This document shows positions 5,144 through 24,415 of a stretch of DNA of 64,000 nucleotides, one piece after another. The notes beneath the pieces are model-generated. The model made no database searches, was not told where the DNA came from, and saw only the letters and a program-made list of their open reading frames with translations. Within the stretch, counting starts at the first letter, position 1. Each line of letters starts with the position of its first letter. The stretch comes from Limnohabitans sp. 2KL-27. GTDB lineage: Bacteria > Pseudomonadota > Gammaproteobacteria > Burkholderiales > Burkholderiaceae_C. The translations under genes and the position numbers were made by a program. The DNA lies in contig NZ_CXOP01000002.1 in the NCBI RefSeq assembly GCF_001269345.1, forward strand, positions 868,853-932,852. The letters are read 5' to 3'.

Positions 5144-5183
5144 GTGTCATGCGCGGCTGCCCACCCCTGTGGGCGATTCATGG

Positions 5184-7296: not shown

Positions 7297-7317
7297 ATCG
7301 ATGCAGGAGCCCAAGAC

Positions 7318-8889: not shown

Positions 8890-8994
8890 CACAGACTGCC
8901 GCGTCGCTGCGCTCCTCGCAGTGACAGGAAAAATCAGCGATCGCGCGATTCGCAGCAAGCATGGCTCATAACCAAGGGAAATCCCTGATCAAAT

Positions 8995-9040
8995 GTCCCA
9001 TGCATAAGACCTGAATGTTCTATTGACAGGACAATGGGAC
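8995..9040. promoter_or_regulatory. Inverted repeats upstream of the GntR gene, candidate operator
   Basis: A perfect 7-bp inverted repeat, GTCCCAT (8995-9001) and ATGGGAC (9034-9040), flanks an imperfect 18-bp palindrome at 9016-9033 (TGTTCTATT / GACAGGACA, 6 of 9 paired). A TTGACA hexamer lies at 9023-9028. The position, 20-65 bases ahead of the regulator start, suits autoregulation by the GntR protein. Only the symmetry is seen; binding is inferred. Confidence 0.35.
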
Positions 9041-9058
9041 TGTTCCACGATCGAGGCC

Positions 9059-9862
9059 ATGGATGCCCATCTGCCTTTGCCCAAGTACCACCAAATTTAT
9101 TTGGTGCTGCGCGAGCAGTTGCGCGAAGGCCGCTTTGACGACGGTTTGCCGGGCGAGATGGCCTTGATGGGGCAGTTTGGTGTGGCCCGTGTCACGGTTC
9201 GGCGTGCCTTGTCGCAACTGGCCGAAGAGGGCTTGATACAGCGCGAGCCCGGGCGTGGCACAAGGCCGGTGACCGCGCGTGCGCAAGAGGTTCAGATGCA
9301 GGCCTCGACCATGGCCACAGGCCAGCAGGCACGCCTGACGGGATTGCTGGAGAACCTGGTCACCATGGGCATGCGCACCAAGGTGAAGGTGCTGAGCGTG
9401 GAGCGCATGCGCGCCCCAGTGGACGTGGCCGCCGCGCTCAAGCTCCACAGCGCTGCGCTGGTGCAAAAAGCCGAGCGCGTGCGCAGCACGCCCGAAGGCC
9501 CCCTGTCGCACATCACCACCTGGGTGCCCGATGCGATTTCAGCCGGCTTTGGCAAGCGCGAGCTGGCGCAAAAACCCATTTTGGTGCTGCTCGAAGAGTC
9601 GGGCGTCAAGGTGGGCCGGGCCGAGCAAACCATTTCGGCCCGTCTGGCCGATGTGGGCATGGCCCAACATCTGGATGTGTCCGTCGGATCGGCCTTGATG
9701 GCGGTGCGGCGTTTGATTTATGACGAGGACGAACGTCCCGTCCAATGGCTGCATGGCTTGTACCGACCGGACCGGTACGAATACCAGATGCAGTTATCCC
9801 GCGTTGGCAGCATCGATGCCAAGGTGTGGGTAAGCCAAGAGCTGTCCGCCAACTTTCATTGA
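9059..9862 (+). CDS. GntR family transcriptional regulator (HutC/UTRA type)
   Basis: This 267-residue regulator has an N-terminal winged helix (KYHQIYLVLREQL, then FGVARVTVRRALSQLAEEGLI) and a C-terminal UTRA effector-binding domain (from about residue 80; conserved end ALMAVRRLIYDEDERPVQWLHGLYRPDRYEY). HutC-type GntR proteins usually sense a pathway metabolite and repress the adjacent catabolic operon. The ATG at 9059 is chosen over an in-frame TTG at 9023, which is part of a TTGACA hexamer. The gene is 20 bases ahead of the ABC transporter genes, so it may be the first gene of the operon as well as its regulator. Confidence 0.9.
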   Translation: MDAHLPLPKYHQIYLVLREQLREGRFDDGLPGEMALMGQFGVARVTVRRALSQLAEEGLIQREPGRGTRPVTARAQEVQMQASTMATGQQARLTGLLENLVTMGMRTKVKVLSVERMRAPVDVAAALKLHSAALVQKAERVRSTPEGPLSHITTWVPDAISAGFGKRELAQKPILVLLEESGVKVGRAEQTISARLADVGMAQHLDVSVGSALMAVRRLIYDEDERPVQWLHGLYRPDRYEYQMQLSRVGSIDAKVWVSQELSANFH

Positions 9863-9882
9863 CCTACTTAAAGGATGTTCTC

Positions 9883-11085
9883 ATGACCTCACGTCGCACT
9901 TTCATGGGCCAGTCCGCTGCGGCGGCCTCGGCACTCGCGTTTCCACTGGTGGGCGGGGCTCAGCCCAAGCCCATCAAAGTGGGTGTTTTGCACCCCGTCA
10001 CCGGTGCCTTGGCTTATTCGGGCCAGCAGTGCCGCATGGGTGCCTTGATGGCGATTGAAGACATCAACAAAGCGGGCGGCATCAAGTCGCTGGGCGGCGC
10101 CAAAATCGAAGCCATGCTGGGCGATGCACAGTCCAGCCCGCAAGCGGGTACGGCCGAGATCGAGAAGATGAACGAAGCCGGCGTCAGCGCCGTGGTCGGG
10201 GCTTTTGCTTCGGCCATTTGCCTGGCCACCACGCAAGCGGCTGCCAAATACAACCTGCCCCACGTGGTCGATGTCGGCGTGGCCGACCAGATCGTCGAGC
10301 GCGGCCTGAAAAACACCTTCCGCTTTGGCCCTGGCTACAGAAAGTGCGCCGAAGTGGCGGTGTCCAGCCTGCACGTCTTGAACACCGCCGCAGGCAAACC
10401 GGCCCGCACCGTGATGATCGTGCACGAAGAGTCGCTGTTCGGCACCGGCACCGCCAACCTTTTGGCCAAAGAGCTGCCGGGCTATGGCTACGAGGTCAAG
10501 GAAATCATCAAGCACGCCAACCCCACGCGTGACTTCAACAACATTGCGCTGCGCATCAAGCAGGTCAACCCCGACATCCTGATCCCCGCGAACTATTACA
10601 ACGAATACGCCCTGCTGGTGCGCACCTTGCAACAGCAAAAAATCACGCCCAAAGCCATTTACTCGGTCTTGGGTGGTGCTGCGTCGAGCTACAAGTTTGT
10701 CAAGGAGTTTCCAGAGGCGGCCAACGGCATCATCGACTGCAACCACTGGTTCAACCCCAAGGACAAGCGCTCGGCCGAATTGCGTAAACGCGTGGAAGCA
10801 CAAGGCCAGTTCTTCAGCTACGAAGTGTTCATGACCTACACCGCCATGATGCTGCTGGCCGATGCCATTGAGCGTGCGAAGTCAACAGACCGCGCCGCCA
10901 TCATCGATGCGCTGGCTTCGAGCAAGTTCGCCAACCACATCATGCCCTACGGCCCCACGCAGTTTGTGAACGGCCAGAACATGGGCGCACAGCCTTTGAT
11001 GACCCAGGTCCACAAAGGCGACATCAAGGTGATCGTGCCGCGCGACTACCGCGAGATTGAGCCGATTTTCCCGCTCAAGGGTTGA
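9883..11085 (+). CDS. Branched-chain-amino-acid-type ABC transporter substrate-binding protein
   Basis: This 400-residue periplasmic binding protein of the LivJ/LivK (Peripla_BP_6) family has an N-terminal twin-arginine-like signal, SRRTFMG, followed by an Ala-rich stretch. Mature motifs include IKVGVLHPVTGALAYSG, GGAKIEAMLGDAQS and GAFASAICLATTQAA. A Shine-Dalgarno AAGGA (9871-9875) lies 7 bases before the ATG. Members bind amino acids, aromatic acids, amides or urea, so the ligand is open. It is followed by livHMGF homologues that complete the transporter. Confidence 0.92.
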   Translation: MTSRRTFMGQSAAAASALAFPLVGGAQPKPIKVGVLHPVTGALAYSGQQCRMGALMAIEDINKAGGIKSLGGAKIEAMLGDAQSSPQAGTAEIEKMNEAGVSAVVGAFASAICLATTQAAAKYNLPHVVDVGVADQIVERGLKNTFRFGPGYRKCAEVAVSSLHVLNTAAGKPARTVMIVHEESLFGTGTANLLAKELPGYGYEVKEIIKHANPTRDFNNIALRIKQVNPDILIPANYYNEYALLVRTLQQQKITPKAIYSVLGGAASSYKFVKEFPEAANGIIDCNHWFNPKDKRSAELRKRVEAQGQFFSYEVFMTYTAMMLLADAIERAKSTDRAAIIDALASSKFANHIMPYGPTQFVNGQNMGAQPLMTQVHKGDIKVIVPRDYREIEPIFPLKG

Positions 11086-11109
11086 TTGACGTTGACCTGA
11101 AAGACCCCG

Positions 11110-11982
11110 ATGCTGGACTTCAACATCCTGTTTCCTTCGGTGCTCAACGGCATCACCACAGGTGCCGTGTACGCGCTGATCGCGCTGGGCCTCACGCTGA
11201 TTTATGGCGTGTTGCACATCATCAATTTCGCGCACGGCGCGTCTTTGATGGTGGCGCTGTATGGCGTGTACATGTTGAAGCAACACTTCGGGGTCGATCC
11301 CTACATGGCCCTGCCCATCATGGTGCCCGCCATGTTTGTGCTGGGTTATGCGCTGCAGCGCGGGGTCATCAACCGCGCCAGCCATGGCAAGGATGAAAAC
11401 ATCCTGCTCGTCACGCTGGGCATCTCCATCGTGCTTGAGAATTTGGCGCTTTTGTACTTCAAGTCAGACACGCGCACCATCGAGACAGCCTACACCTTGA
11501 CCACCGTTGAGATCGGGCCAGCCTTCATCGCCCTGCCCAAGCTGGTGTCCTTTGCTGGCGCCCTGGTGGTGTCGGCGGTGATGTTGCTCATTGTGCAAAA
11601 GACCGACTTGGGTCGCGCCATTCGCGCCGTGTCCAAAGAGAAGCAAGGCGCGCGTTTGATGGGCATCGATGTGGACCATGTGTACGCCATGTGCTTTGGC
11701 CTGGGCCTGGCCAGTCTGGGCGCGGCCGCCTGCTTTTTGATGCCGGCCTATTACGTCAACCCGCAAGTGGGCAACGGCTTTGTGCTGGTGGCCTTCACGA
11801 TCGTGGTGCTGGGCGGCATGGGCAGTTTTGCCGGGGCTTTGCTGGGAGGACTGCTGATCGGCGTGGTGGAGTCGCTAGGGGGCTTGCTGCTGGGTGAGTC
11901 ATTGGGCCAGGTGGGTATTTTTGTGATTTTCATTGCAGTGCTTTTGCTCAGGCCGCAAGGATTTTTCGGAGCGAAGGCATGA
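11110..11982 (+). CDS. livH: ABC transporter permease, LivH type
   Basis: This 290-residue inner-membrane permease has eight or so hydrophobic helices and the LivH signature segments GITTGAVYALIALGLTLIYGVLHIINFAHG near the N-terminus and AFTIVVLGGMGSFAGALLGG near residue 235. It forms the channel with the LivM-type partner. Its stop overlaps the next start (ATGA, 11979-11982). The symbol marks the family, not the substrate: in this cluster the cargo is probably the precursor of the downstream pathway. Confidence 0.92.
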   Translation: MLDFNILFPSVLNGITTGAVYALIALGLTLIYGVLHIINFAHGASLMVALYGVYMLKQHFGVDPYMALPIMVPAMFVLGYALQRGVINRASHGKDENILLVTLGISIVLENLALLYFKSDTRTIETAYTLTTVEIGPAFIALPKLVSFAGALVVSAVMLLIVQKTDLGRAIRAVSKEKQGARLMGIDVDHVYAMCFGLGLASLGAAACFLMPAYYVNPQVGNGFVLVAFTIVVLGGMGSFAGALLGGLLIGVVESLGGLLLGESLGQVGIFVIFIAVLLLRPQGFFGAKA

Positions 11983-12956
11983 AAGACTTTCGCAACATCG
12001 CGCTGTTTGTGGTGCTGGTGGGGGCGGTACCCTTGTTCACCGATTCGGGCGTGATGCTCAACTTCGTCATGACCTCGTTGTACGCCTGCTTGCTCTCGCA
12101 AGCCTGGAACGTGCTGGGTGGTTATGGGGGGCAGTTTTCTTTTGGCCATGCGCTGTTTTTTGGCACAGGCGCTTATGTGCAGGCGATTGCGCAAATGCAG
12201 TGGGGCCTGAGCCCCTGGGTGGCATTGCCTTTGGCCATGGCTTTTGCGGCGGGCGTGGGGGCGTTTGTGGGCGCGGCTTCGTTCCGCTATGGCCTCAAGG
12301 GTTCGTACTTTGCGCTGGTCACGCTGGCCTTTGCCGAGGTGTTCCGCATTGTGGCCACTTCGGTGCCTTTCACGGGCGCCGGTGTGGGCCTGATGCTGCC
12401 ACTCAAGGAGTCGGCGGCCAACATGCAGTTTGGCAGCCGTGCCGGTTTCATCTGGCTCATGCTGGGCCTGGTCACGCTGGCGCTGTGCATCACGGCTTGG
12501 CTGCGCCATTCGCGCTTTGGTGCTTACCTGCAAGCGGTGCGTGACAACGAAGACGCGGCCCGCGCCATCGGCGTGAACCCCTTCAGCGTCAAGCTGATTG
12601 CCACCATTTTGTCCGGTGGCCTGATGGGTGCAGGTGGCGCTTTTTATGTGCAGGTGTTCCAGTACATCGACCCTGGCATTGCCTTTGGGGCGCACACTTC
12701 TGTCGAGGCCTTGGTGGGTGCGATCGTCGGCGGCATGGGCACGCTGTGGGGCCCGCTCTTGGGCGCGGTGAGTTTGCACATCCTGGCCGATGTCACGCGC
12801 AACTTGTTTGGGCAGCTGCCCGGCATCAACATGGTCATTTATGGCGTGGTGCTGATCGTGATCGTGATGTTCTTGCCGCGCGGCATTGCGGGGCTGGGCA
12901 CCATCACGCCGCTGCAATGGTTGCGCGGCAGCAAGTCGGATGGAGACAAATCATGA
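11979..12956 (+). CDS. livM: ABC transporter permease, LivM type
   Basis: This second transmembrane subunit of the Liv-type importer has 325 residues. The conserved LivM blocks are LSQAWNVLGGYGGQFSFGHA near residue 40, AVRDNEDAARAIGVNP in the coupling region, and GGMGTLWGPLLGA near the C-terminus. It is coupled to its neighbours by 4-base overlaps at both ends. Confidence 0.92.
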   Translation: MKDFRNIALFVVLVGAVPLFTDSGVMLNFVMTSLYACLLSQAWNVLGGYGGQFSFGHALFFGTGAYVQAIAQMQWGLSPWVALPLAMAFAAGVGAFVGAASFRYGLKGSYFALVTLAFAEVFRIVATSVPFTGAGVGLMLPLKESAANMQFGSRAGFIWLMLGLVTLALCITAWLRHSRFGAYLQAVRDNEDAARAIGVNPFSVKLIATILSGGLMGAGGAFYVQVFQYIDPGIAFGAHTSVEALVGAIVGGMGTLWGPLLGAVSLHILADVTRNLFGQLPGINMVIYGVVLIVIVMFLPRGIAGLGTITPLQWLRGSKSDGDKS

Positions 12957-13729
12957 GCACGCTGCTGCAGATCGAGGGCGTGTCCAAGTCCTTTGGCGGT
13001 TTGAAGGCCGTACAAAATGTGAGCCTGTCGGTGACCGAGGGGCGTCTGAGCGCCTTGATTGGCCCCAACGGTGCAGGCAAGACGACCTTGTTCGCACTCA
13101 TGTCGGGCTTTCTGACGCCGGACACGGGCCGTGTGGTGTTTGCAGGCCAGGACATCACCGGTCAGCCGCCGCACCTGAACGCCCGCATGGGCCTGACGCG
13201 CACCTTCCAGATCGTGCAGCCCTTTGCCGCGCAAACCGTGCGCGAGAACATCGCGGTGGGGGCGCACCTGCATTTGCCACGCCGCGCCGAGGCCCTTGAC
13301 TGGGCTGAGTCGGTTGCGCAGCAAGTGGGTCTGAGCCCGCAACTGGACAAGCTGGCCAGCGACTTGACGGTGGCCGGACGCAAACGGCTGGAGCTGGCCC
13401 GTGCATTGGCCACGCGGCCGCGCCTGTTGTTGCTCGACGAGGTGCTGGCCGGATTGAACCCGCAAGAAATCGCCGAAATGATCCCGGTGGTGCAAGGCAT
13501 TGCCCAAAGCGGTGTGACGGTGCTGATGATCGAACACGTCATGCAAGCGGTGATGAGCCTGGCGCAAGAGGTTTGGGTGCTCGCGCAAGGCCAGTTGATT
13601 GCCCAAGGCACACCCGCCGAGGTGACGAACAACAAAGCCGTGGTCGAGGCTTATCTGGGCCACGGCACGGCCGAGCGCTTGCAAAAGAACGCAGCCCAAG
13701 ACAAAACAGCGCAGGAGGCACAGGCATGA
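12953..13729 (+). CDS. livG: ABC transporter ATP-binding protein, LivG type
   Basis: This 258-residue ATPase has a Walker A GPNGAGKTTLFA, an intact Walker B core LLLLDE, and LivG features such as RTFQIVQPF. The signature is unusual: LTVAGRKRLELA where LivG proteins commonly have LPYGQQRRLE, and the Walker B is followed by VLAGLNP rather than PAAGLNP. This variant recurs in some family members, so it probably marks a subfamily and not an inactive copy. The ATG at 12953 overlaps the livM stop. A longer upstream in-frame extension is inside livM and is not used. Confidence 0.92.
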   Translation: MSTLLQIEGVSKSFGGLKAVQNVSLSVTEGRLSALIGPNGAGKTTLFALMSGFLTPDTGRVVFAGQDITGQPPHLNARMGLTRTFQIVQPFAAQTVRENIAVGAHLHLPRRAEALDWAESVAQQVGLSPQLDKLASDLTVAGRKRLELARALATRPRLLLLDEVLAGLNPQEIAEMIPVVQGIAQSGVTVLMIEHVMQAVMSLAQEVWVLAQGQLIAQGTPAEVTNNKAVVEAYLGHGTAERLQKNAAQDKTAQEAQA

Positions 13730-14436
13730 CCGCTTTGTTGAATGTGCAGGGCCTCAAATCCGGCTACGGTGTGGTCGAGGTCTTGCGCGGTGTGGACCTG
13801 CAGGTCATGCCCGGCGAGCTGGTGGCGCTTTTGGGCAGCAACGGCGCGGGCAAGACCACACTCAACCTCACACTCAGCGGCTTGGTGGCCACGCGCGCGG
13901 GTCGGGTGGGGTTCGATGGGCAGGACATCACCGGTCTGCATTCACGCCAGGTGGTCAAGCATGGCTTGATCCAGGTGCCTGAGGGCCGAAAAGTGTTCCC
14001 CAACCTGAGCGTGCACGAGAACTTGGAGCTGGGGGCCTTCACCCGAGGGCGTGAGCGACGCTTGCAGAACCTGGACAAGGTCTACGAGACATTCCCACGG
14101 TTGAAAGAGCGCGTGGCCCAGTTGGCGGGCACGCTCAGCGGTGGCGAGCAGCAGATGTTGGCCATTGGCCGGGGCCTGATGGCCGAGCCGCGCTTGTTGA
14201 TCCTGGACGAACCCTCACTGGGTTTGTCGCCCCTGCTGGTGGAAGAGTTGTTTGGCTTGATCGCCTCGCTGCGCAGCAGCGGCCTGTCGATCTTGCTGGT
14301 GGAGCAAAACGTGGGCCAGTCTCTGGACATCGCCGACCGGGCTTATGTGATGGAAAACGGACAAATCCGTTTCACGGGCACACCCGCCGAGTTGTTGGGC
14401 AGTGACACGCTCAGGCAAGCCTATTTGGGGATGTGA
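13726..14436 (+). CDS. livF: ABC transporter ATP-binding protein, LivF type
   Basis: This second ATPase of the importer has 236 residues with a Walker A GSNGAGKTTLN, a canonical signature LSGGEQQMLAIGRGLM, Walker B LLILDEPSLGLSP, and the LivF motif VPEGRKVFPNLSV. Its start overlaps the livG stop (ATGA). A 73-base gap follows before the Bug-type gene, the widest break in this part of the operon. Confidence 0.93.
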   Translation: MTALLNVQGLKSGYGVVEVLRGVDLQVMPGELVALLGSNGAGKTTLNLTLSGLVATRAGRVGFDGQDITGLHSRQVVKHGLIQVPEGRKVFPNLSVHENLELGAFTRGRERRLQNLDKVYETFPRLKERVAQLAGTLSGGEQQMLAIGRGLMAEPRLLILDEPSLGLSPLLVEELFGLIASLRSSGLSILLVEQNVGQSLDIADRAYVMENGQIRFTGTPAELLGSDTLRQAYLGM

Positions 14437-14509
14437 GGCCGCAGTGCAGCGCCTGGCCTGTTGCGGTTTTTCAACCCGTTTGACCCCTTGATCTTCCATC
14501 TTGTTTGAC

Positions 14510-15487
14510 ATGACCGTACGCATTGCTTTTGACCGCACCGTTCTGATGTGGACCACCGCTATGGCGTTGGTGTGCTGGGCGGGCATGGCCCGTGCCCAAG
14601 CGCAGCCGCCCATCAAAATTCTGGTGGGTGCTCCCGCAGGCGGCACCACCGACACCATGGCCCGCACGCTGGCCACGGTGCTGGGCACACAGCTGGGGCG
14701 CACTGTGGTGGTCGAGAACAAACCCGGTGCAGGTGGCAACTTGGCCGCCGACGCGGTGGCCAAGGCCGCGCCCGATGGCCATACGCTGCTCATGAGCTTC
14801 ACCAGCCACGCCATCAATGCCTCGCTGTACCCCCGCTTGCCTTTTGATCCGGTCAAAGACTTCACCCCTTTGACCATGGTGTCGACCTCACCGTCGATCC
14901 TGGTGGCCCACCCCAGGGTCTCGGCCAACAGCGTCCAAGAATTGATCACTCTGGCCAAGTCCAAGCCCGGGCAGCTGAACTTTGCGATTGGCGCAATGGG
15001 CTCGTCCTTGCACATGGCGGGTGACGCCTTCAAGATGCAGTCGGGTGTGTACATCGTGAACATCCCCTACCGGGGCACGGCCCCTGCGGTGCAAGACGTG
15101 TTGGCCGGGCAAGTGGACTTGATGTTCGCCGCCATTGGCAACGTGCAATCGCACATCAAGGCGGGCAAACTCAAGGCCCTGGGCGTGACCAGCGCCAAAC
15201 GCCTGCCCGCTTTTGCGGACGTGCCCGCCATTGGCGAGAGCTTGCCCGGTTACGAGTCGAGTGCCTGGTTTGGATTGTTTGGCCCGGGGCGCATGAGCCC
15301 TGATCTGAGCAAGCGCCTGGCCGATGCGGCCCGCGCTGCGGTGCAGTCGCCCGATGTCAAGCGGCGCATTGAAAGCGAAGGGGCCACGGCCGTGGGCAAC
15401 AGCCCGGAAGAATTTGCCCGTTTTGTGGACAGCGAGATCGTGCGTTGGCGCGCGGTGGTGCAGTATGCCGGAGCCAAGCCCGAATGA
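14510..15487 (+). CDS. Bug/TctC-type periplasmic binding protein (orphan)
   Basis: This 325-residue member of the Bordetella uptake gene family has a Sec signal (hydrophobic segment to about residue 30, cleaved near MARAQA). It continues with IKILVGAPAGGTTDTMAR, VVENKPGAGGNLAADAVAKAAPDGHTLL and the IPYRGTAPAVQDVLAGQVDLMF block. Bug proteins bind carboxylates such as citrate, and also amides and nicotinate-like compounds. No TctA/TctB membrane partner is present, so it may sense ligand or pass it to another transporter. Its stop overlaps the start of the LeuC-like gene, which ties it to the catabolic genes. The ATG at 14510 is preferred to a TTG at 14501. Confidence 0.9.
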   Translation: MTVRIAFDRTVLMWTTAMALVCWAGMARAQAQPPIKILVGAPAGGTTDTMARTLATVLGTQLGRTVVVENKPGAGGNLAADAVAKAAPDGHTLLMSFTSHAINASLYPRLPFDPVKDFTPLTMVSTSPSILVAHPRVSANSVQELITLAKSKPGQLNFAIGAMGSSLHMAGDAFKMQSGVYIVNIPYRGTAPAVQDVLAGQVDLMFAAIGNVQSHIKAGKLKALGVTSAKRLPAFADVPAIGESLPGYESSAWFGLFGPGRMSPDLSKRLADAARAAVQSPDVKRRIESEGATAVGNSPEEFARFVDSEIVRWRAVVQYAGAKPE

Positions 15488-16770
15488 AACCCAGCGATTT
15501 TCAGCCACAAACATTGGCCCAAAAACTCATCGCCCGCGCCGCAGGCCGCAGCCATGTGGCCGTGGGCGAGTTGCTCACCTGCAACGTGGACTTGGCCATG
15601 TTCCACGACTCGTCGGGTCCGCGCCGCTTGAAGCCTATGCTGGACGAATTGGGCGCCGAGATCTGGGACAAAAACAAAGTGGTGCTGGTGCTGGACCACT
15701 ACGTGCCCGCGCAAGACGCGGATGCCCAGCAGATTGTGCAGATCGCGCGCGACACCGCCAAGCAGTGGAAGCTGCCCCACGTCATTGACAGCGAGGGCAT
15801 TTGCCACGTGGTTCTGCCCGAGCGCGGCCATTTGAAGCCGGGCATGTTTTGTGTCGGTGGCGACTCGCATTCGCCCACGGGCGGGGCCTTTGGTTGCTAC
15901 ATGTTTGGCATCGGTGCGACCGAGATGCTGGGCGTGTGCGTCACCGGCCAAATTTGGGTGCAGGTGCCGCGCACCTTGCGCATGCACTGGTCGGGTCGCT
16001 TGCAAGCCGGTGTGTCGGCCAAAGACATGATGCTGCACATGGTGGGTCGCTTTGGCATGAATGGCGGCCAATACCAGGCGGTGGAGTTTGCGGGGTCTGC
16101 GGTGCAGGCCCTGTCCATGGCCGAGCGCATGACCCTGTCCAATATGAGCGCCGAGATGGGGGCTCAGGCCGGTTTGATCGCGGCCGATGAGACCACCTTG
16201 AACTACCTGCGTGGCGTGGGCGTGGCCTCTGAGCATCTGGCCGGGGCCGAGCAATGGCACACCGATGAAGACGCCGAATACGAGCAGCACACCTTTGATG
16301 CCGCCCGCCTCAGCCCGCAGGTGGCCGCACCGCACAGCCCGGCCAACACCCGAGATGTGGCCGAATTTGCGGATGTGGCGCCAAGCATTGCCTACATCGG
16401 TGCCTGCACCGGCGCCAAACTCGAAGACCTGCGGGCCGCCGCCTCGGTGCTCAAGGGTCAGCGCGTGGCCGCTGGCGTGCAGCTGATGGTGGCGCCTGCC
16501 AGTGCCCGCGAACAAGCGCAGGCCACGCAAGAAGGCGTGATGCAAATCTTGCTGGACGCCGGCGCCACGGTGCTGCCCAACAGTTGTGGTGCGTGTGCGG
16601 GTTACGGCGCGACTTTCCCCGAAGGCGCCACCGTGATTTCGACCACCGCCCGCAATTTCAAGGGCCGCATGGGCCCGGCCAGCGTGAACGTGTATTTGGC
16701 CTCGCCTTACACCGTGGCCGCTTCGGCTTTGCGCGGGCGCATCAGCGATGCACGCGAGGTGCTGGCATGA
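15484..16770 (+). CDS. Aconitase-family hydratase, large subunit (LeuC/DmdA-like)
   Basis: This 428-residue subunit resembles the large subunit of 3-isopropylmalate dehydratase and related two-subunit hydratases such as dimethylmaleate hydratase. All three [4Fe-4S] ligands are visible: C308 in IGACTGAKLEDLR, and C368 and C371 in NSCGACAG. The GGDSHSPTGGAFG motif near residue 127 is also conserved. The clustered small subunit, hydantoinase genes and lyase argue against a role in leucine synthesis. The likely reaction is reversible hydration of a substituted maleate to a substituted malate (inference). It starts in an ATGA overlap with the Bug gene. Confidence 0.88.
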   Translation: MKPSDFQPQTLAQKLIARAAGRSHVAVGELLTCNVDLAMFHDSSGPRRLKPMLDELGAEIWDKNKVVLVLDHYVPAQDADAQQIVQIARDTAKQWKLPHVIDSEGICHVVLPERGHLKPGMFCVGGDSHSPTGGAFGCYMFGIGATEMLGVCVTGQIWVQVPRTLRMHWSGRLQAGVSAKDMMLHMVGRFGMNGGQYQAVEFAGSAVQALSMAERMTLSNMSAEMGAQAGLIAADETTLNYLRGVGVASEHLAGAEQWHTDEDAEYEQHTFDAARLSPQVAAPHSPANTRDVAEFADVAPSIAYIGACTGAKLEDLRAAASVLKGQRVAAGVQLMVAPASAREQAQATQEGVMQILLDAGATVLPNSCGACAGYGATFPEGATVISTTARNFKGRMGPASVNVYLASPYTVAASALRGRISDAREVLA

Positions 16771-17270: not shown

Positions 17271-18967
17271 ACCCGATGGATTCCAAATCTCAACCGACGG
17301 GCGTCCACCCTGTGATGGACCCGGTGACCCTTGCGGTGCTGCGCGGCCGTCTTGAACAGATCGCCGATGAAATGGACGCGACGCTCTACCGCAGCGCCTT
17401 CAATCCCATCATTGCCGAGGCGCACGACGCTTGCCACGGTCTGTACGACGCCACCACCGGCGACACTCTGATCCAGGGCAAGTCCGGTCTGCCGGTGTTT
17501 GTGGGGGCGATGGCCTTTGCGGTGCGCGCGGCCATGCGCGTGGCCGCCGAGCGTGGCGGCATGCAGCCGGGCGATGTGTGGCTGTTCAACGACCCCTATG
17601 AGGGCGGCACGCACGCCAACGACTTCAAGCTGGTCAAGCCCTGCTTTCGCCAAGGGCAGCTGTATTGCTTTCTCGCATCGGCTGCGCATTGGCACGACGT
17701 GGGCGGCGCGGTGCCCGGCAACTACAACCCGGCCGCCACCGAATGCTGGCAAGAAGCGGTGCAGATCCCGCCGGTGCGCATCTTGCGCGCTGGTGTGCTG
17801 GACGACGATGTGCTGGCCATTTTGCGGGCCAACACCCGCTTGCCCGACAGCCTGTGGGGTGACCTGAACGGCCAGCTGGCCGCCCTCGAATTGGGCGCAC
17901 GCCGCCTGGACGGTTTGCTGGACGAATACGGCGACGCCAAAGTGGCCCAAGCCTTGGTGGAGCTGCGCAGCCGCGCTGTGCGCCTGATGCGCTCGCACAT
18001 CGGCAGCTTGCCCGATGGCCGCTACAGCTTTGAAGATGTGCTGGACAACGACGGCGTCAAAGACGAGCTGCTCACCATTGCGCTGGACATGACCGTGGCC
18101 GGCGATCGCCTGACGCTCGACTTTTCGCGCACCTCGGCGCAATGCGCAGGCCCGGTGAACATCTCGCGCGCCACGGCGGTGGCCGCGTGCTACGTGGCCT
18201 TGAAGCACGTGTTTCCCGATGTGCCGGCCAACGCCGGCGTGCTCGACGCGGTGGACTTTGTGATTCCCGATGGCCTGGTCATCAGCGCTTCGCGCCCGCG
18301 CCCGGTGGGGGGCTACACCGAGACCATCTTGCGCATGATCGATGTGATCTTCAGCGCCACGGCACTGGCCGACCCGAAGCGGGCCGTGGCCCATGCCTAC
18401 GGCACCATCAACGCCTTGTCGATCGCGGGGCACCGCACCGACGACAAACGCAAGGGCCAGCGCTGGGTGATGTTCAGCTTTTTTGGCGGCGGGCACGGCG
18501 GCCACTCGGACGGCGACGGCTTGTCGCACGGCAATGCGCCGATCTCGACCGCCACCATCCCACCCATGGAAATTTTGGAGGCCGCCTACCCGGTGCGCTT
18601 CACCCAATGGGCTTTGCGCCCCGGCTCGGGCGGCGATGGCCAGCACCGAGGCGGGCTGGGGGCGATTTACGAGATGGAGTTGCTGGAAGACAGTGCCGAA
18701 GCTTTTATTTTTGGCGAGCGCGGCAAATCCGCGCCCAAGGGCATCCACGGCGGCCAGCCCGCGCTGCCCAATGTGTTTGAGTACTGCCAAAACGGCGAAT
18801 GGAAAACTCCGCCCATGGTTTCGAAAATGCTGGGCATTCACCTCAAAAAGGGCGACCGCGTGCGCCTGCAAACCCCGGGTGGCGGCGGCTGGGGTGCCCC
18901 CGCCGATCGCACGTCGCAGGACCGCGCCAAGGACAGCGCACTGGGTTACACCAAGGAACAAGCATGA
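17267..18967 (+). CDS. hyuB: Hydantoinase B/oxoprolinase family subunit
   Basis: This 566-residue HyuB-family protein carries MDPVTLAVLRGRLEQIADEM at the start, the conserved block GDVWLFNDPYEGGTHANDFKLV, AAHWHDVGG, and a C-terminal Gly-rich GSGGDGQHRGGLG and TPGGGGWG. With HyuA it forms ATP-dependent enzymes that open or hydrolyse amide rings (N-methylhydantoinase, 5-oxoprolinase, caprolactamase) or carboxylate ketones (acetone and acetophenone carboxylases). The substrate is unknown here. No carboxylase gamma subunit is present, so ring opening is the better guess. ATGA overlaps join it to both neighbours. Confidence 0.9.
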   Translation: MNPMDSKSQPTGVHPVMDPVTLAVLRGRLEQIADEMDATLYRSAFNPIIAEAHDACHGLYDATTGDTLIQGKSGLPVFVGAMAFAVRAAMRVAAERGGMQPGDVWLFNDPYEGGTHANDFKLVKPCFRQGQLYCFLASAAHWHDVGGAVPGNYNPAATECWQEAVQIPPVRILRAGVLDDDVLAILRANTRLPDSLWGDLNGQLAALELGARRLDGLLDEYGDAKVAQALVELRSRAVRLMRSHIGSLPDGRYSFEDVLDNDGVKDELLTIALDMTVAGDRLTLDFSRTSAQCAGPVNISRATAVAACYVALKHVFPDVPANAGVLDAVDFVIPDGLVISASRPRPVGGYTETILRMIDVIFSATALADPKRAVAHAYGTINALSIAGHRTDDKRKGQRWVMFSFFGGGHGGHSDGDGLSHGNAPISTATIPPMEILEAAYPVRFTQWALRPGSGGDGQHRGGLGAIYEMELLEDSAEAFIFGERGKSAPKGIHGGQPALPNVFEYCQNGEWKTPPMVSKMLGIHLKKGDRVRLQTPGGGGWGAPADRTSQDRAKDSALGYTKEQA

Positions 18968-21036
18968 GTGAGCAGTCAGTGAATCAACCTCATTGGGTGG
19001 TGGGCGTGGACGTGGGCGGCACCTTCACCGACCTGTTCGTGCTGGACGAAAAAACCGGCCAAGCCCGTATCGTCAAAGTGCCCTCCACCCGGGGGGAAGA
19101 AGCCCGGGGCTTCATGAACGGCATCGCCCAAGTGACCGGCAACACCGGCGCTGATGGCGCCAAGGACATTGCCACCATCGTGCACGGCACCACGGTGGGC
19201 ACCAACGCCTTGCTCGAGCGCAAGATCGCGCGCACCGGCATCATCACCACGCGGGGTTTCCGCGATGTGCTGGAGATGCGCCGCCGCGACCGCCCGCAAA
19301 CCTGGGGACTGCGCGGCAGCTACACCCCAGTGGTGCCCCGCGCTTTGCGGCTGGAGGTGGACGAGCGTGTGCTGGCCGATGGCCAGTTGCACACGCCGGT
19401 CGATCTGGCGCAGGTGCGCGAACAGGCCCGCGCTTTGCTGGCCGAAGGCTGCGAAGCGGTGTGCGTGTTCTTTGTGCACGCCTATGCCAACCCCTCCAAC
19501 GAGCAAGCCGCAGTGGCGGCGGTGCGCGAGATCTGGCCCAACAGCCATGTGACGGCGGCCAGCGAAGTGCTGCCTGAAATACGCGAGTTCGAGCGCTGCT
19601 CGACGGCCACGCTCAATGCGGCCTTGCAGCCCGTGGTGGGCAGCTATTTGCAGCGCCTCGATGGCGATCTGCGCGCGCAGGGCTTTGGCGGTGAATTGCT
19701 GATCGTGCAAAGCAACGGCGGCGTGATGTCGCGACAGACGGCCTGCGATGTGCCGGTGCGCACCGCGCTGTCGGGCCCGGCTGCGGGCGTCATGGCTTGC
19801 GCCGAGATTGCGCGCGCTTCGGGTTTTGACAATGTGATCACCGGTGACATTGGGGGCACCTCGTTTGACGTGTCGCTGGTGGCGGGGGGGGAGGCGGCTT
19901 TGGCTGCGCAAACATCCATCGAGTTTGGCTTGGTGGTGCGCTCGCCCATGATCCAGATCGAGACCATTGGCGCCGGTGGCGGCTCGATCGCCTCGGTCGA
20001 TGCGGGCGGCATGCTGCAAGTGGGCCCCGAATCTGCGGGCAGCAATCCCGGTCCGGCTTGCTATGGGCGGGGCAACACCCGCCCCACGGTGACCGACGCC
20101 AACGTGCTGCTGGGCCGCATTGCGGCCGACCGGCCTTTGGGCGGCGGTCTGCTGCAAAAACTCGATGCGGGCTTGTCCGAAAAAGCCATTGCCCAGCATG
20201 TGGCCGAGCCTTTGGGCTTGACGGCCTTGGCCGCGGCCGAAGCGATTTTGACGGTGGCCAACGCCCGCATGGCCGGCGCGATCCGCGTGGTTTCGATCGA
20301 ACGCGGGCACGATCCGCGCCAGTTCGCCTACATGCCCTTTGGCGGTGGCGGTGGCCTGCATGTGTGCGCCATGATGCGCGAGGTGGGCGTGACCACCGGC
20401 ATCGTGCCGCGTTACCCGGGCGTGACCTCGGCGCTGGGCTGCGTCATGGCCGACATGCGCCACGACGCGGTGCAGACCCTGAACGTGGCCTTGGCCGATG
20501 TGGCCTGGCCCGCCTTGATCCAGCGTGTGGACAGCTTGGCCGAGGCCTGCCAACTGCGCCTCGATTCCGCCGGGGTGCATTTTGTGAAGGTGGACGAGGT
20601 GATCAGCTTTGACATGCTCTACATGGGCCAAACCCACACCTTGCAAGTGTCCGTCAAGCGCGATCAGCTGCATGCCGCAGGGGTTCTGGCGGCGTTTGAA
20701 GCGGCTTACCAACACGCTTTTGGCCGTGTGCTGCAAGGCCCGGTGATCCGCGTGATGAACCTGCGCTATGCCCGCATCGGGCGGCGTCCCAAGTTCGACT
20801 TGGCGGTGCTGGCCCCACAAGGTGAAGGTCGCACCACCCCGGTGGGCGAGCAGCCCGTTTACCACCAGGGCCAGTGGTGGACGGCTCAGCGCTACGAGCG
20901 CCTGAGTCTGCCCGTGGGCACCGTGGTGCAAGGCCCGGCCATTTTGGAGCAGCCCGACACCACGGTGTGGCTGGAACCCGGCTTTGAAGGCCGGGTCGAC
21001 AAACTGGGCAACTTGTTGGTGGAGCGCACGGCATGA
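18964..21036 (+). CDS. hyuA: Hydantoinase A/oxoprolinase family ATPase subunit
   Basis: This 690-residue HyuA-family protein carries the ASKHA-type phosphate loop GVDVGGTFTDLFVLDE at the N-terminus, HGTTVGTNALLERK, the second loop GDIGGTSFDVSLV, and the GAGGGSIASVDAGG motif. This subunit phosphorylates the amide or carbonyl so that the HyuB part can hydrolyse or carboxylate it. It follows hyuB, so the gene order is B then A. Its stop overlaps the next start by ATGA. Confidence 0.92.
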   Translation: MSEQSVNQPHWVVGVDVGGTFTDLFVLDEKTGQARIVKVPSTRGEEARGFMNGIAQVTGNTGADGAKDIATIVHGTTVGTNALLERKIARTGIITTRGFRDVLEMRRRDRPQTWGLRGSYTPVVPRALRLEVDERVLADGQLHTPVDLAQVREQARALLAEGCEAVCVFFVHAYANPSNEQAAVAAVREIWPNSHVTAASEVLPEIREFERCSTATLNAALQPVVGSYLQRLDGDLRAQGFGGELLIVQSNGGVMSRQTACDVPVRTALSGPAAGVMACAEIARASGFDNVITGDIGGTSFDVSLVAGGEAALAAQTSIEFGLVVRSPMIQIETIGAGGGSIASVDAGGMLQVGPESAGSNPGPACYGRGNTRPTVTDANVLLGRIAADRPLGGGLLQKLDAGLSEKAIAQHVAEPLGLTALAAAEAILTVANARMAGAIRVVSIERGHDPRQFAYMPFGGGGGLHVCAMMREVGVTTGIVPRYPGVTSALGCVMADMRHDAVQTLNVALADVAWPALIQRVDSLAEACQLRLDSAGVHFVKVDEVISFDMLYMGQTHTLQVSVKRDQLHAAGVLAAFEAAYQHAFGRVLQGPVIRVMNLRYARIGRRPKFDLAVLAPQGEGRTTPVGEQPVYHQGQWWTAQRYERLSLPVGTVVQGPAILEQPDTTVWLEPGFEGRVDKLGNLLVERTA

Positions 21037-21635
21037 ACCTGCACAACGCGAAACTGGGCATGGTCATCGTGGACCTGCAAAACGATTTTCTGGCCCCCGA
21101 TGGGGCTTATGCCCGGGGCAACACCCTGAGTGCCGAGGCGGTGCTGCTGCCCGAACGCATGGCCCCGGTGGCGCGTGCCATCAAGGGGCGCGGTGGCCTG
21201 GTCACCGCCAGCCTGTTCACGCTGTGGCCCAACGCACAAGGCGAGCCCATGATCTCGGCGCATCTGAAAGAGCGCCGCCCGTTTTTGCGCCAAGGCGATT
21301 TCGCGCCCGGCAGCCGTGGCCAGGCCAATGTGGACTTGCTGGCACCGCTGGTCGATGTGTCGGTGTTCAAGGTGGCCTATTCGGCCTTCTTCAACACGCA
21401 GCTGGACTGGGTGCTCAAGAAGTCGGGCATCGACACCTTGGTGGTGTGCGGCATCGTCACCAACGGTGGCGTGGCCAGCACGGTGCGCGACGCCCATGTG
21501 CGCGACTACGATGTCATCGTCTTGTCGGACGGTTGCGCCGCCTTCAGCGATGCCGCCCACCAGGCCGCGTTGGCCGACATGGCCTCGGTCGCCACCGTCA
21601 TGGACAGCGCCTCTTTCTTGAAACAGCTGGGCTGA
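21033..21635 (+). CDS. Isochorismatase-fold protein lacking the cysteine nucleophile
   Basis: This 200-residue protein of the isochorismatase-like hydrolase superfamily begins with the catalytic Asp motif MVIVDLQNDF (D14) and has the catalytic Lys K113 in VFKVAYSAFF. The amidases of the family (N-carbamoylsarcosine, maleamate, ureidoacrylate) have a Cys in a TNxCVxST motif. Here the sequence reads VTNGGVAST, with Gly146 (codon 21468-21470) at that position. True isochorismatases also lack the Cys. The protein may therefore not be a thiol amidase, even though its operon context would favour one. It is coupled to hyuA by ATGA. Confidence 0.85.
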   Translation: MNLHNAKLGMVIVDLQNDFLAPDGAYARGNTLSAEAVLLPERMAPVARAIKGRGGLVTASLFTLWPNAQGEPMISAHLKERRPFLRQGDFAPGSRGQANVDLLAPLVDVSVFKVAYSAFFNTQLDWVLKKSGIDTLVVCGIVTNGGVASTVRDAHVRDYDVIVLSDGCAAFSDAAHQAALADMASVATVMDSASFLKQLG

Positions 21636-21639
21636 AGCC

Positions 21640-23043
21640 GTGAGCGCACCGCAGCCGCAAGTTCGCCCTGCCGCCCAATTGCAAGCCGAGGTCCACACGC
21701 CGGTTGTGGTGGTGGGGGCCGGCGCGTGTGGACTCACGGCGGCGCTGGCCTTGCACCGCTTGGGTGTGGAGTCTGTGGTGCTCGAGCGTGACGCGTTTGC
21801 CGCAGGCTCCACCGCCTTGTCGTCGGGGTTCATTCCGGCGCCCGGCACACAGGCGCAACAGGCCCAGGGCATCACCGACAGCGTGGCCGCTTTTGCGGCC
21901 GACATCCAGGCCAAGGCCCACGGTCAGGCCGCGCCGCACCTTGTGCAGGCCTATGCCCAACACATCGGCCCGGCCATGGACGCCTTGGCGACCCACCACG
22001 GCTTGCCTTGGCAGGTGCTGGACAACTTTTTGTACCCCGGACACAGCGCCCACCGCATGCACGCCGTGCCCGAAAAAACCGGGGCGGGCCTGATGAGCCG
22101 CCTGCAAGCGGCCGCCGACGCCGCGGGCGTGGTGGTGCTCACGCAGGCGCAGGTCACCGAGTTGTGGGCCGACGCCAGCCAGCGCATCCAGGGCGTGGGC
22201 TTTGTGCGGCCCGATGGGCAGGTCGAGCGCATCCGCTGCGATGCGGTGCTTCTGGCTTGCAATGGTTTTGGCGGCGCTGCGGCCATGGTGCAAGACCTGC
22301 TGCCCGAGATGGCCGAGGCCACCTATGCCGGCCATGTGGGCAACGACGGCAGCGCCATCGCCTGGGGACGGCAACTCGGCGCACGCCTGGCTGATCTGGG
22401 GGCTTACCAGGGCCACGGCTCTTGGGCCGTGCCGCAAGGGGCCTTGATTTCCTGGGCGCTGATGATGGAGGGCGGTGTGCAGATCAACGCCCAAGGCCAG
22501 CGCTTTCACGATGAAACCCAGGGTTACTCGGAGGCGGCGGTGCACGTGCTCGCGCAGCCGGACGGTGTGGCCTGGAATGTGTTCGACGACGCATTGCTGG
22601 CCTTTGCGCAAGAGTTCCCCGATTTTGTGGCGGCGCAAGGCGCAGGCGCGGTGCAGCACGCGGCCGATGCGGTGGCGCTGGCGCGCCTGATCGGCTGCCC
22701 GCCCGAAGCTTTGCAAGCCACCTTGAACGCGGTGCAGCCAGGCACCGACCCGGCCACTGGCCGCACGTTCCAGCGCGCATTGCAAGCCCCTTTTCACGCC
22801 ATCCAGGTCACCGGGGCCCTGTTCCACACCCAAGGCGGGCTCGACATCGACGCGCACGCCCGTGTGCTGCGACAAGACGGCACGCCACTGCCCAATTTGC
22901 TGGCCGCAGGCGGCGCGGCGCGGGGCGTGTCGGGGCAGGCGGTGTGGGGCTATCTGTCGGGCAATGGTTTGCTCAGCGCCATCGCCGGTGGCCACATCGC
23001 CGCGCACACGGCGCAACAACTGTTGAAGGATTCGGCATCATGA
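21640..23043 (+). CDS. FAD-dependent dehydrogenase, fumarate reductase/KstD type
   Basis: This 467-residue flavoprotein of the FAD_binding_2 family has the N-terminal dinucleotide fold VVVVGAGACGLTAALALHRLG with LERD about 25 residues later. The C-terminal flavin-capping block is GGLDIDAHARVL followed by NLLAAGGAARGVSG. Members introduce or remove a double bond next to a carboxyl or carbonyl (succinate dehydrogenase, ketosteroid dehydrogenase). In this operon a desaturation of a succinyl-like intermediate would feed the hydratase (inference). The start is GTG, 4 bases after the previous stop, with a weak ribosome-binding site. The stop overlaps the lyase start. Confidence 0.88.
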   Translation: MSAPQPQVRPAAQLQAEVHTPVVVVGAGACGLTAALALHRLGVESVVLERDAFAAGSTALSSGFIPAPGTQAQQAQGITDSVAAFAADIQAKAHGQAAPHLVQAYAQHIGPAMDALATHHGLPWQVLDNFLYPGHSAHRMHAVPEKTGAGLMSRLQAAADAAGVVVLTQAQVTELWADASQRIQGVGFVRPDGQVERIRCDAVLLACNGFGGAAAMVQDLLPEMAEATYAGHVGNDGSAIAWGRQLGARLADLGAYQGHGSWAVPQGALISWALMMEGGVQINAQGQRFHDETQGYSEAAVHVLAQPDGVAWNVFDDALLAFAQEFPDFVAAQGAGAVQHAADAVALARLIGCPPEALQATLNAVQPGTDPATGRTFQRALQAPFHAIQVTGALFHTQGGLDIDAHARVLRQDGTPLPNLLAAGGAARGVSGQAVWGYLSGNGLLSAIAGGHIAAHTAQQLLKDSAS

Positions 23044-23921
23044 GACACCCCCACACCTTGGCCAAGCGACTGCAGCAGCCCCAAGCGCTGCTGGCCCCCG
23101 GCGTGTACGACGCGCTCACCGCCTTGGTGGCGCAGCAAGCTGGCTTTGAGGCCGTTTACTTGTCTGGCGCCTCCATCGCCTACACCCGCCTGGGCCGCTC
23201 TGACATCGGTCTCACCACCGCCACCGAAGTGGCGCAGACCTTGGCGCACATCACCGACCGGGTGAGCATTCCTGTGATCGTGGACGCTGATACTGGTTTT
23301 GGCAACGCGCTCAACACCCAGCGCACGGTGCGCGACTTCGAGCGGGCCGGCGCTGCCATGGTCCAGATTGAAGACCAGACCTTCCCCAAACGCTGCGGAC
23401 ATTTGGACGGCAAAGGCGTGGTGCCCGTGGCCGAAATGCAGGGCAAGCTGCGCGCAGCACTTGATGCCAGGCACGACCAGAACACCTTGATTCTGGCGCG
23501 CACCGATGCGGTGGCGGTCGAAGGCTTGGACGCCGCGCTGGAGCGGGCCGAACGCTATCTGGAATGCGGGGTGGACGCGCTGTTCATTGAAGCCCTGCGT
23601 TCGGACGAGCAGATGAACCGGGCTTGTGCGCAGTTTTCAAAGCGCGTGCCGCTGCTGGCCAACATGGTCGAAGGCGGCAAGACGCCGGTGCAAAGCGCGG
23701 CCGAGTTGGGCGCGCGCGGTTTCAAGATCGTGATTTTTCCCGGCGGCACAGCGCGGGCGGTGCTGCACACCTTGCAAGGCTATTACGCGAGCTTGCATGC
23801 GCACCAGACCACGCGCCCCTGGCAAGACCACATGCTCGACTTTGATGGCTTGAACGCGGTCATCGAAACTCCGCAACTGCTGGCCCTGGGGCAGCGTTAC
23901 GAAGGCCTTGAAAAGACATGA
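23040..23921 (+). CDS. Isocitrate lyase/PEP mutase superfamily C-C lyase
   Basis: This 293-residue TIM-barrel enzyme resembles PrpB, oxaloacetate decarboxylase and 2,3-dimethylmalate lyase. Key parts are [27 protein letters not shown], the Mg-binding VDADTGFGN (residues 81-89), [12 protein letters not shown] with the catalytic Cys119, and ARTDA. The KRCGH motif marks a true lyase and not PEP mutase. Next to a LeuCD-type hydratase it probably cleaves a 2-alkyl or 2,3-dialkyl malate to pyruvate (or another oxo acid) and a carboxylic acid. It is coupled on both sides by ATGA. Confidence 0.9.
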
Positions 23922-24415
23922 CGCAGCCCCTTGTTTTGCGGGGTTTGCAAGTTGGTGACATCGGTTGGGTGGTGCACCGCCAGGGGATTTTGTATGCCCA
24001 GGAATACGGCTGGGATGGCACCTTCGAGGCGTTGGTGGCTGAGATTGCAGCGCAGTTCGTGAAGAACTTCGACCCTGATTGGGAGAACGCCTGGATGGCC
24101 GAGCGCGACGGCCAGGTGGTGGGCTCGGTGTTTCTGGTCAAGGTGTCCGAGCAAGAAGCCAAGCTGCGTTTGCTCTATGTGGAGCCCGATGCGCGTGGCG
24201 CAGGCTTGGGTCGTCGCCTCACGGCCCAGTGCATCGCGTTTGCCCGAGCCAAAGGCTATGCCCAGCTCACTTTGTGGACCAATGACATCCTGCATGCTGC
24301 TCGCCGCATTTACCAGGAGGCGGGTTTCACCTTGGTGTCCGAAGAGCCGCACCATTCTTTTGGCGCCGACCTGGTGGGGCAGTACTGGTCACTGGACCTT
24401 CGCGCCATCCCATGA
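23918..24415 (+). CDS. GNAT family N-acetyltransferase
   Basis: This 165-residue acetyltransferase has the acetyl-CoA motif [21 protein letters not shown] near residue 95 and a GNAT C-terminus, [22 protein letters not shown]. It is the last gene of the catabolic operon, overlapping the lyase stop by 4 bases. Its substrate is unknown. In such operons these enzymes may detoxify amines or side products, but nothing here proves that. It faces a convergent minus-strand gene 28 bases away. Confidence 0.87.

Follow-up and report, generated by a model that had tools for sequence, protein, structure and literature searches.

The stretch of DNA analyzed here, hereafter the window, comprises 64,000 nucleotides of Limnohabitans sp. 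2KL-27 (NCBI RefSeq assembly GCF_001269345.1, contig NZ_CXOP01000002.1, positions 868,853 to 932,852 of the forward strand) and contains, at positions 9059..24415, a gene cluster for the predicted uptake of a cyclic imide, likely hematinic acid, and its conversion into ammonia, pyruvate and glutarate, which is a tentative assignment, although the best that we can offer. The cluster consists of fifteen genes located on the + strand in the order gntR, livK, livH, livM, livG, livF, bug, leuC-like, leuD-like, hyuB, hyuA, and those of an isochorismatase-fold protein, a flavin adenine dinucleotide (FAD) flavoprotein, an isocitrate lyase (ICL)-family lyase and a GNAT protein (Table 1). According to the coordinates of the open reading frames (ORFs), 10 of the 14 gene junctions are 4-bp overlaps, so that the cluster is likely a single transcript. 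A preliminary description of the locus, made from the DNA letters, had counted fourteen co-directional genes; their co-direction stands, the number being fifteen by ORF count, and the domain assignments given there are borne out by the open frames and by Pfam and NCBIfam profile searches (10 of the 15 proteins were run against Pfam).

According to the proposed route, hematinic acid, i.e., 3-(2-carboxyethyl)-4-methylmaleimide, or its dihydro form would be imported by the Liv and Bug proteins, and the dihydro form, a succinimide, would be oxidized to the maleimide by the flavoprotein ahead of ring opening. HyuBA would open the maleimide with ATP to a half-amide, which would shed ammonia, through the isochorismatase-fold protein or spontaneously, to give 2-methyl-3-(2-carboxyethyl)maleate, that is, the 2-methyl-cis-aconitate of the propionate pathway plus one carbon. 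Addition of water to this compound by the LeuCD-like hydratase and cleavage of the hydrated product by the PrpB-like lyase would release pyruvate and glutarate, the latter being presumably finished by a glutaryl-CoA dehydrogenase (GcdH) encoded elsewhere in the source genome (2.97 Mb on two contigs). Every reaction of the route is predicted from sequence evidence: the genes present and their conservation, the replacement of one ring opener by another, the residues of the active sites, and the neighboring genes. The outline drawn earlier (import, opening, desaturation, hydration and cleavage to a 2-oxo acid) is upheld by the exchange of ring openers and by the presence of an extra LeuCD pair; our reading differs in the order of the steps, the flavoprotein probably acting on the ring before it is opened. 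A lactam, which had been considered alongside an imide, was set aside as the less likely substrate, because its opening would yield an amine, for the removal of which the fifteen genes encode neither a deaminase nor a transaminase.

Relatives of the cluster were collected by means of its LeuC-like protein. A scan of public genomes returned 318 relatives, of which the best 80 were taken on, the closest named ones among these 80 being Limnohabitans and Comamonadaceae records with 94-96% identity. Whole-genome searches, the source genome included, detected the LeuC-like protein in 13/398 genomes from the phylum, 23/399 from the order, 4/292 from the order of genome G333 and 24/289 from the class of genome G285 (at set E limits). 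The cluster is spread over Burkholderiales and, as we infer from kinship, Alphaproteobacteria, G333 and G285 having only the phylum in common with the source genome. Of the 53 further genomes that gave a match, 40 supplied loci; the 120 loci in total were all picked by the LeuC-like gene, and 91 of them, termed complete below, extend at least 7 kb downstream of it. Gene calling at these loci was crude, and some frames are shadow frames, including the first flank family of the clustering described below. The complete loci contain the LeuD-like gene in 91/91 cases, the lyase in 87/91 and HyuBA in 67/91, and the 67 complete Hyu loci also carry the isochorismatase-fold gene (66) and the flavoprotein (62). 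Such an arrangement is far from chance, and the first two counts make the hydratase and the lyase its constant core; the same neighborhood, for which a search had been proposed in the preliminary description, was found in other genomes, with LeuD-like gene and lyase together at 87 of the 91 complete loci. The Bug gene accompanies the LeuCD and lyase genes at the ring-opener-free loci L020, L028, L091, L093, L101 and L102 and is missing from several Hyu clusters. Two of these loci, L020 and L028 (the latter a short contig), belong to close Limnohabitans relatives and keep the acyl-CoA synthetase, Bug, LeuCD and lyase genes; none of the Liv, HyuBA, isochorismatase-fold and flavoprotein genes was seen there. 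Limnohabitans-like clusters were also seen on contigs titled Akkermansia muciniphila and Singulisphaera (L029 and L070), probably mislabelled or contaminated metagenome-assembled genomes.

With 251 bits, the LeuC-like protein stays far below the cut-off of 560 of the LeuC equivalog TIGR00170, and it clears the cut-offs of the broad isopropylmalate isomerase (IPMI)/homoaconitase subfamily models only; the small subunit passes that of the LeuD/DmdB family TIGR02087. The source genome separately encodes canonical LeuC and LeuD, and a second LeuC above the curated cut-off is present in 45 of the 49 genomes with the cluster-type protein, which, together with the low score, rules out the pair as leucine-synthesis enzymes. 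It is therefore not the only copy in the genome; a sole copy that also complements a leuCD mutant is what the preliminary description had named as speaking against its scheme. Three cluster-binding Cys residues of the aconitase superfamily were found in 100/100 LeuC-like rows and the GSSRE motif in 96/96 small-subunit rows with letters, as expected of hydro-lyases of this superfamily.

The lyase reaches 293 bits with the prpB model TIGR02317, the cut-off of which is 354. In an alignment with 1mum, the PrpB catalytic set Y43, S45, D85, D87, C123, H125, R158, E188 and N210 (presumably in E. coli numbering) is kept in 77/77 lyase rows, as are K, C and H of the KxCGH motif and the Phe that lines the methyl pocket. 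The accessible parts of the literature on methylisocitrate lyase specificity yielded no residue for the second product. Two more distant paralogs were seen in the source genome: a second ICL-family protein (C2:266311-267036, beside a Bug protein) and a second HyuB with HyuA (G000:C2:2412399-2413952), 38% and 30% identical to those of the cluster, respectively.

Beside this core, unrelated ring-opener families replace one another. Over the 120 loci we found HyuBA at 77, an L080-type context at 13, a pair of two CE4/PuuE-like proteins with a distinct Cys-bearing isochorismatase-fold protein at 7, an allantoinase/dihydropyrimidinase-type amidohydrolase at 3, and no ring opener in reach at 20, 9 of which have less than 7 kb downstream. 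The L080-type context, found in Limnohabitans relatives, comprises SDR, DUF4387, AtuA and MmgE/PrpD genes, with a distant PuuE-like gene in 9/13; in L080 itself (2-9936) and its relatives, MmgE/PrpD, distant PuuE-like, Liv, SDR, DUF4387 and AtuA genes stand ahead of the GntR-LeuCD-FAD-lyase genes. Strict mutual exclusion of the ring openers was dropped, since L048 has HyuBA plus a PuuE-like gene behind the lyase; its segment 18352-20383, beyond the Hyu-type cluster, includes PuuE-like, Asp/Glu/hydantoin racemase-family and SnoaL-like genes. In a quick tree built from 88 LeuC rows, the opener label ('core only' counted) needs 16 changes, the minimum being 4, and L103 (CE4) is sister to L105 (Hyu); 28 of the 85 forks are open. 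L063 shares 94% identity in the lyase and 88% in the GNAT protein with the source locus, at a LeuC identity of 74% and with a different ring opener (L063 11748-14591), which suggests that one lyase may serve both opener versions. L063 also looks like a recent exchange of the lyase.

HyuA and HyuB pass the Hydantoinase_A and Hydantoinase_B gathering scores; among solved structures, HyuA comes closest to the N-methylhydantoinase 7hk5 (E 4.5e-124), with the 5-oxoprolinase 6yra almost level, and against the caprolactamase models NF050156 and NF050157 HyuBA reaches 523 and 273 bits at a cut-off of 1000. The isochorismatase-fold proteins of the CE4 version bear GGSTSGC in 7/7 cases; the best solved relative of this amidase is N-carbamoylsarcosine amidohydrolase, 3ot4 and 3uao (which we take to be the maleamate amidohydrolase NicF) being more distant. 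HxnM, the genetically assigned cyclic imidase of Aspergillus (deletion and metabolite data), is described as akin to PuuE and to a Pseudomonas putida cyclic imide hydrolase homolog (PMC9304392), and imidase is classed together with dihydropyrimidinase and allantoinase (PMC4437985). Hence, the common theme of the opener relatives appears to be the opening of cyclic imides or ureides; each opener could act on ureides instead, because none clears a curated equivalog cut-off.

The flavoprotein scores 223 bits with TIGR01813 (cut-off 285) and also misses the cut-off of TcuA. In an alignment with Fcc3-type enzymes both substrate-site His residues are kept, and Tyr occupies the positions of Arg402 in 73/73 rows and of Arg544 in 69/69 rows with a letter. 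These are the acid and the carboxylate-binding residue, presumably in the numbering of Shewanella Fcc3. As both substrate Arg residues of fumarate reductases are Tyr here, the flavoprotein may act as a dehydrogenase on a neutral ring, not on a free dicarboxylate. Its gene occurs in 62/67 complete Hyu loci, 3/3 amidohydrolase loci, 4/4 complete L080-type loci and 1/11 core-only loci.

The side chain of the substrate is indicated by the neighbors of the cluster in its relatives. Six loci (L034, L035, L092, L109, L125 and L126) have a GcdH gene upstream of the cluster in divergent orientation, and L039 has an edge piece of one. The top solved match of the L109 protein is the glutaryl-CoA dehydrogenase 3gnc (E 3.4e-188), the other five being 70-76% identical to it. 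At L034 a class III CoA-transferase gene follows gcdH and a LysR gene stands between gcdH and the cluster; L035 looks alike, and a LysR gene is also present in L092. The same layout as that of L034 is described for gcdR-gcdH-gcoT of P. putida (PMC6667623). GcdH was found in 45 of the 49 genomes with the cluster LeuC, including the source genome, and within 10 kb of it in 6 of these 45 (G454, G567, G596, G1042, G1159 and G366, three genera), with a gap below 250 bp in 5/6. Chance adjacency would be expected, by our estimate, in about 0.2 of 45; within 10 kb of the canonical LeuC it occurs in 0 of the 42 genomes with both. Many of the genomes in these counts are fragmented. A second GcdH is encoded elsewhere in G1042. 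Unguided clustering of the flanking frames, in which lineages are distinct rounded identities to the source locus, placed GcdH among the most widespread real families (5 identity bins), besides a tautomerase/SnoaL group (7 bins) and a MiaB-like gene (5, mostly close Limnohabitans), and the GcdH-adjacent lineages cover the Hyu, CE4 and amidohydrolase versions. Since GcdH genes adjoin the cluster in its relatives, they point to a carboxyethyl side chain and to glutarate as a probable product; a guess that opened hematinic acid or ethylmethylmaleate might be cleaved into pyruvate plus 'glutarate or butyrate' had been recorded prior to the recognition of GcdH.

A number of observations weigh against this route. 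The lyase is out of reach at 4 of the 91 complete loci (L098, L107, L108 and L109), where the core is incomplete, and their genomes hold only distant relatives of it (best 39-45% identical); the best lyase relative is 36% identical in two sister genomes of that of L109 with the same GcdH neighbor, and the genomes of the G454 genus contain no lyase relative closer than 36-39%. GcdH is remote from the cluster in the source genome and in 39/45 genomes overall, the six genomes with adjacent GcdH represent three genera, in each of which the adjacency could be chance or simple synteny, and the NCBIfam glutaryl-CoA dehydrogenase model Acd gives 193 against a cut-off of 470; the best NCBIfam model, a FadE, likewise falls short, so that none of the acyl-CoA dehydrogenase models is passed. 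The MmgE/PrpD, AtuA and DUF4387 neighbors are not accounted for by the route, L048 is the sole locus of the 120 with two opener kinds (HyuBA and PuuE-like), and no pigment-cleaving gene was noticed among the fifteen cluster genes. The maleimide itself would need no flavoprotein, the role of which depends on the dihydro forms, and this gene is out of reach at 5/7 CE4-pair loci, L103 and L113 having it. Homoaconitase-type specificity is marked by a basic residue in the small subunit's YLRT loop. The Lys found there in 92/96 rows with letters aligns with an Arg of the homoaconitase 2pkp; the same position is Lys in ordinary bacterial LeuD as well (3h5e and the source genome's own LeuD), which makes the loop ambiguous, and the Lys was set aside as proof of a third carboxylate. 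A role of this loop in specificity has been described (PMC7308503).

The release of ammonia presents a further difficulty. In the isochorismatase-fold protein of the Hyu version, the position of the nucleophile is Gly in 62/62 rows, with Asp and Lys kept in 62/62, so that the Asp-Lys-Cys triad of Cys amidases (NicF, CSHase, RutB) is incomplete; in having Gly for Cys with Asp and Lys kept, the protein resembles true isochorismatases as well as E. coli YecD (the latter by alignment with 1j2r). The product of 21033-21635 and its 61 relatives apparently form an invariant Cys-free subfamily of this fold. Its reading as an amidase is weakened by this replacement, its candidacy as the half-amide amidase of the Hyu loci was set aside, and no enzyme of these loci can be assigned to ammonia release, because the amidase Cys is missing. 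Disubstituted maleamates shed ammonia with the aid of the adjacent carboxylate, which makes a Cys-free catalyst conceivable, as a speculation.

The same route might also run on alkyl maleimides and succinimides without the carboxyethyl group (e.g., ethylmethylmaleimide, which comes from chlorophyll, or methylsuccinimide), yielding pyruvate and butyrate or another monoacid activated by the acyl-CoA synthetase encoded upstream; we consider this unlikely, though worth serious attention. The evidence from the openers and the lyase fits it equally, a fatty acyl-CoA synthetase gene lies directly upstream of the cluster here and in 26/120 loci, and of the maleimides found in sediments, methylethyl maleimide typically predominates (PMC12860425). 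This synthetase is possibly a partner activating an acid product, or mere synteny; it is kept, patchily, down to 76% LeuC identity and is gone from the 79-82% group and beyond, and such loss beyond the closer relatives, together with GcdH beside the cluster in four lineages, speaks for the carboxyethyl-bearing substrate.

Rather improbable is a hydantoin or ureide pathway, in which the opener would act on a hydantoin-like ring, the isochorismatase-fold amidase would remove the carbamoyl group, and the LeuCD-like pair and the lyase would process the skeleton. The best solved relatives (N-methylhydantoinase, PuuE allantoinase, N-carbamoylsarcosine amidohydrolase) do act on ureides, and a racemase-family gene of the Asp/Glu/hydantoin type occurs at L048; however, the fifteen genes include no aminotransferase or ammonia-lyase that would turn an amino acid into an unsaturated dicarboxylate, and the amidase of the Hyu loci has no Cys. 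Still harder to defend is a side route like that of 2-methylcitrate, with MmgE/PrpD, LeuCD-like and PrpB-like enzymes acting on alkylcitrates or branched diacids and with the openers as a separate nitrogen-scavenging module: core-only loci (Bug, LeuCD, lyase) exist, and 12/120 loci have MmgE/PrpD genes within the cluster or next to it, including L103, L105, L113 and the L080 context, but the openers and the lyase occur together in 66/67 complete Hyu loci, no PrpD neighbor is in reach at 108/120 loci, and no citrate-synthase gene is found among the fifteen, the genes to which this search was confined. The dimethylmaleate/dimethylmalate tail of nicotinate breakdown in the style of Eubacterium barkeri is very improbable, for it shares the enzyme kinds (a LeuD/DmdB-family two-subunit hydratase and an ICL-superfamily lyase), but none of its upstream enzymes (enamidase, methyleneglutarate mutase, methylitaconate isomerase) is seen among the cluster genes, 10/15 of which were Pfam-searched, and the ring openers are of another kind.

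Table 1. Genes of the cluster and its upstream neighbor, with positions in the window and the basis of each assignment.
Feature	Position	Strand	Basis
GntR/UTRA-type regulator	9059..9862	+	Pfam GntR and UTRA; copies 52-98% identical within or heading relatives' clusters
LivK-like Liv ABC binding protein	9883..11085	+	NCBIfam branched-chain amino acid binding-protein family, below cut-off; conserved
LivH-like Liv permease	11110..11982	+	Open frame, conserved; name by reading alone
LivM-like Liv permease	11979..12956	+	Open frame, conserved; name by reading alone
LivG-like Liv ATPase	12953..13729	+	Open frame, conserved; name by reading alone
LivF-like Liv ATPase	13726..14436	+	Open frame, conserved; name by reading alone
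Bug/TctC periplasmic binding protein	14510..15487 (TTG-opened ORF from 14501)	+	Pfam TctC 2.2e-69
LeuC-like large subunit, predicted alkylmaleate hydratase (Fe-S)	15484..16770	+	NCBIfam hacA/IPMI subfamily above cut-off
LeuD/DmdB-type small subunit	16767..17270	+	TIGR02087 above cut-off; GSSRE motif; YMK loop
HyuB subunit, ATP-dependent cyclic amide/imide hydrolase (predicted)	17267..18967	+	Pfam Hydantoinase_B 1.6e-166
HyuA subunit, ATP-dependent cyclic amide/imide hydrolase (predicted)	18964..21036	+	Pfam Hydantoinase_A; nearest solved 7hk5
Isochorismatase-fold protein, nucleophile Cys replaced by Gly	21033..21635	+	Pfam Isochorismatase 7e-37
FAD flavoprotein, soluble fumarate-reductase type, predicted ring dehydrogenase	21640..23043	+	Pfam FAD_binding_2; alignment with Fcc3-type enzymes
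ICL/phosphoenolpyruvate (PEP)-mutase-family lyase, PrpB-like, KRCGH with catalytic Cys	23040..23921	+	TIGR02317 293 bits
GNAT acetyltransferase, accessory	23918..24415	+	Pfam Acetyltransf_1; 16/120 loci
Fatty acyl-CoA synthetase, upstream, co-directional	7318..8889	+	PRK08316 above cut-off; 26/120 loci

Some further genes were seen around the relatives of the cluster. The MmgE/PrpD genes at the 12 loci mentioned above (L103, L105, L113 and nine of the L080 type) possibly encode a second dehydratase or isomerase. A tautomerase-SnoaL fusion with confirmed domains lies upstream of the cluster at L113 (1487-2056, - strand); similar frames were recognized by eye in L112 and L119, and L110 is in the same flank group. 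A ferrochelatase gene close downstream of the lyase occurs at L059 (domain confirmed), L062, L064, L073, L074 and L077, with a similar gene at L097; it may be a coincidence, and, being confined to one clade and L097, it was set aside as a link to heme.

Among pigments that contain nitrogen, chlorophyll and heme rank with the most abundant. Maleimides left over from them are found in sediments both modern and ancient (PMC12860425), hematinic acid arises from heme, bilirubin and chlorophyll and occurs in the environment (PMC10343206, PMC12860425), and the bacterial protein ChuS is described to release it from heme (PMC10343206). In the accessible parts of the open-licence literature we found no described microbial pathway using such maleimides, hematinic acid as food included, and nothing on the combination of maleimide, hydantoinase and lyase. 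To our knowledge, this substrate class has no described pathway, and known chemistries are predicted to be assembled here into a catabolic route for it. That the cluster represents the first pathway by which bacteria feed on hematinic acid and the dihydro form, carboxylated monopyrroles to which heme, chlorophyll and bilins decay, leading from an imide to pyruvate and glutarate through a carbon-homologous version of the 2-methylcitrate tail, with several interchanged openers, seems possible, if somewhat doubtful. If true, it would supply the final step in the recycling of tetrapyrroles, in lakes as well as elsewhere. The wide spread of the cluster and the concrete substrate and products predicted make the question directly testable, and the swapping of unrelated openers beside a constant tail is a natural experiment in convergent pathway assembly.

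All the enzymes belong to known families, and no equivalog cut-off is passed for LeuC, PrpB, caprolactamase or TcuA. The HyuAB enzymes (N-methylhydantoinase, 5-oxoprolinase, caprolactamase) share with HyuBA of the cluster the two subunits and the Pfam families, whereas the cluster proteins are far under the caprolactamase cut-offs and have other neighbors. HxnM and HxnN of Aspergillus nidulans, a PuuE/CE4-related imidase followed by an amide hydrolase, parallel the CE4 version; in contrast, the Aspergillus imide is six-membered, and no hydratase-lyase tail appears in the accessible part of that source (PMC9304392). TcuA and the flavocytochrome c fumarate reductase have the FAD_binding_2 fold and alkane-alkene chemistry beside a carbonyl in common with the flavoprotein, which differs from them in being under both cut-offs and in having Tyr at both substrate-Arg positions. 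In anaerobic nicotinate fermentation, the dimethylmaleate hydratase DmdAB and the 2,3-dimethylmalate lyase Dml likewise couple a two-subunit hydratase of the LeuCD type with a lyase of the ICL/PEP-mutase family, yielding pyruvate and an acid; the cluster differs in its cyclic-amide openers and flavoprotein and has no nicotinate enzymes, the likeness being drawn at the level of enzyme family (the accessible open-licence literature gave no result for dimethylmaleate hydratase with its lyase and nothing of use for the lyase alone). As to the 2-methylcitrate cycle (AcnB/AcnD or PrpD, and PrpB), the hydratase of the cluster is of the IPMI/homoaconitase type, not AcnB or AcnD, and a citrate synthase is absent from the fifteen genes, while the lyase is nearest to the PrpB model, and its predicted substrate would be one carbon longer than 2-methylisocitrate.

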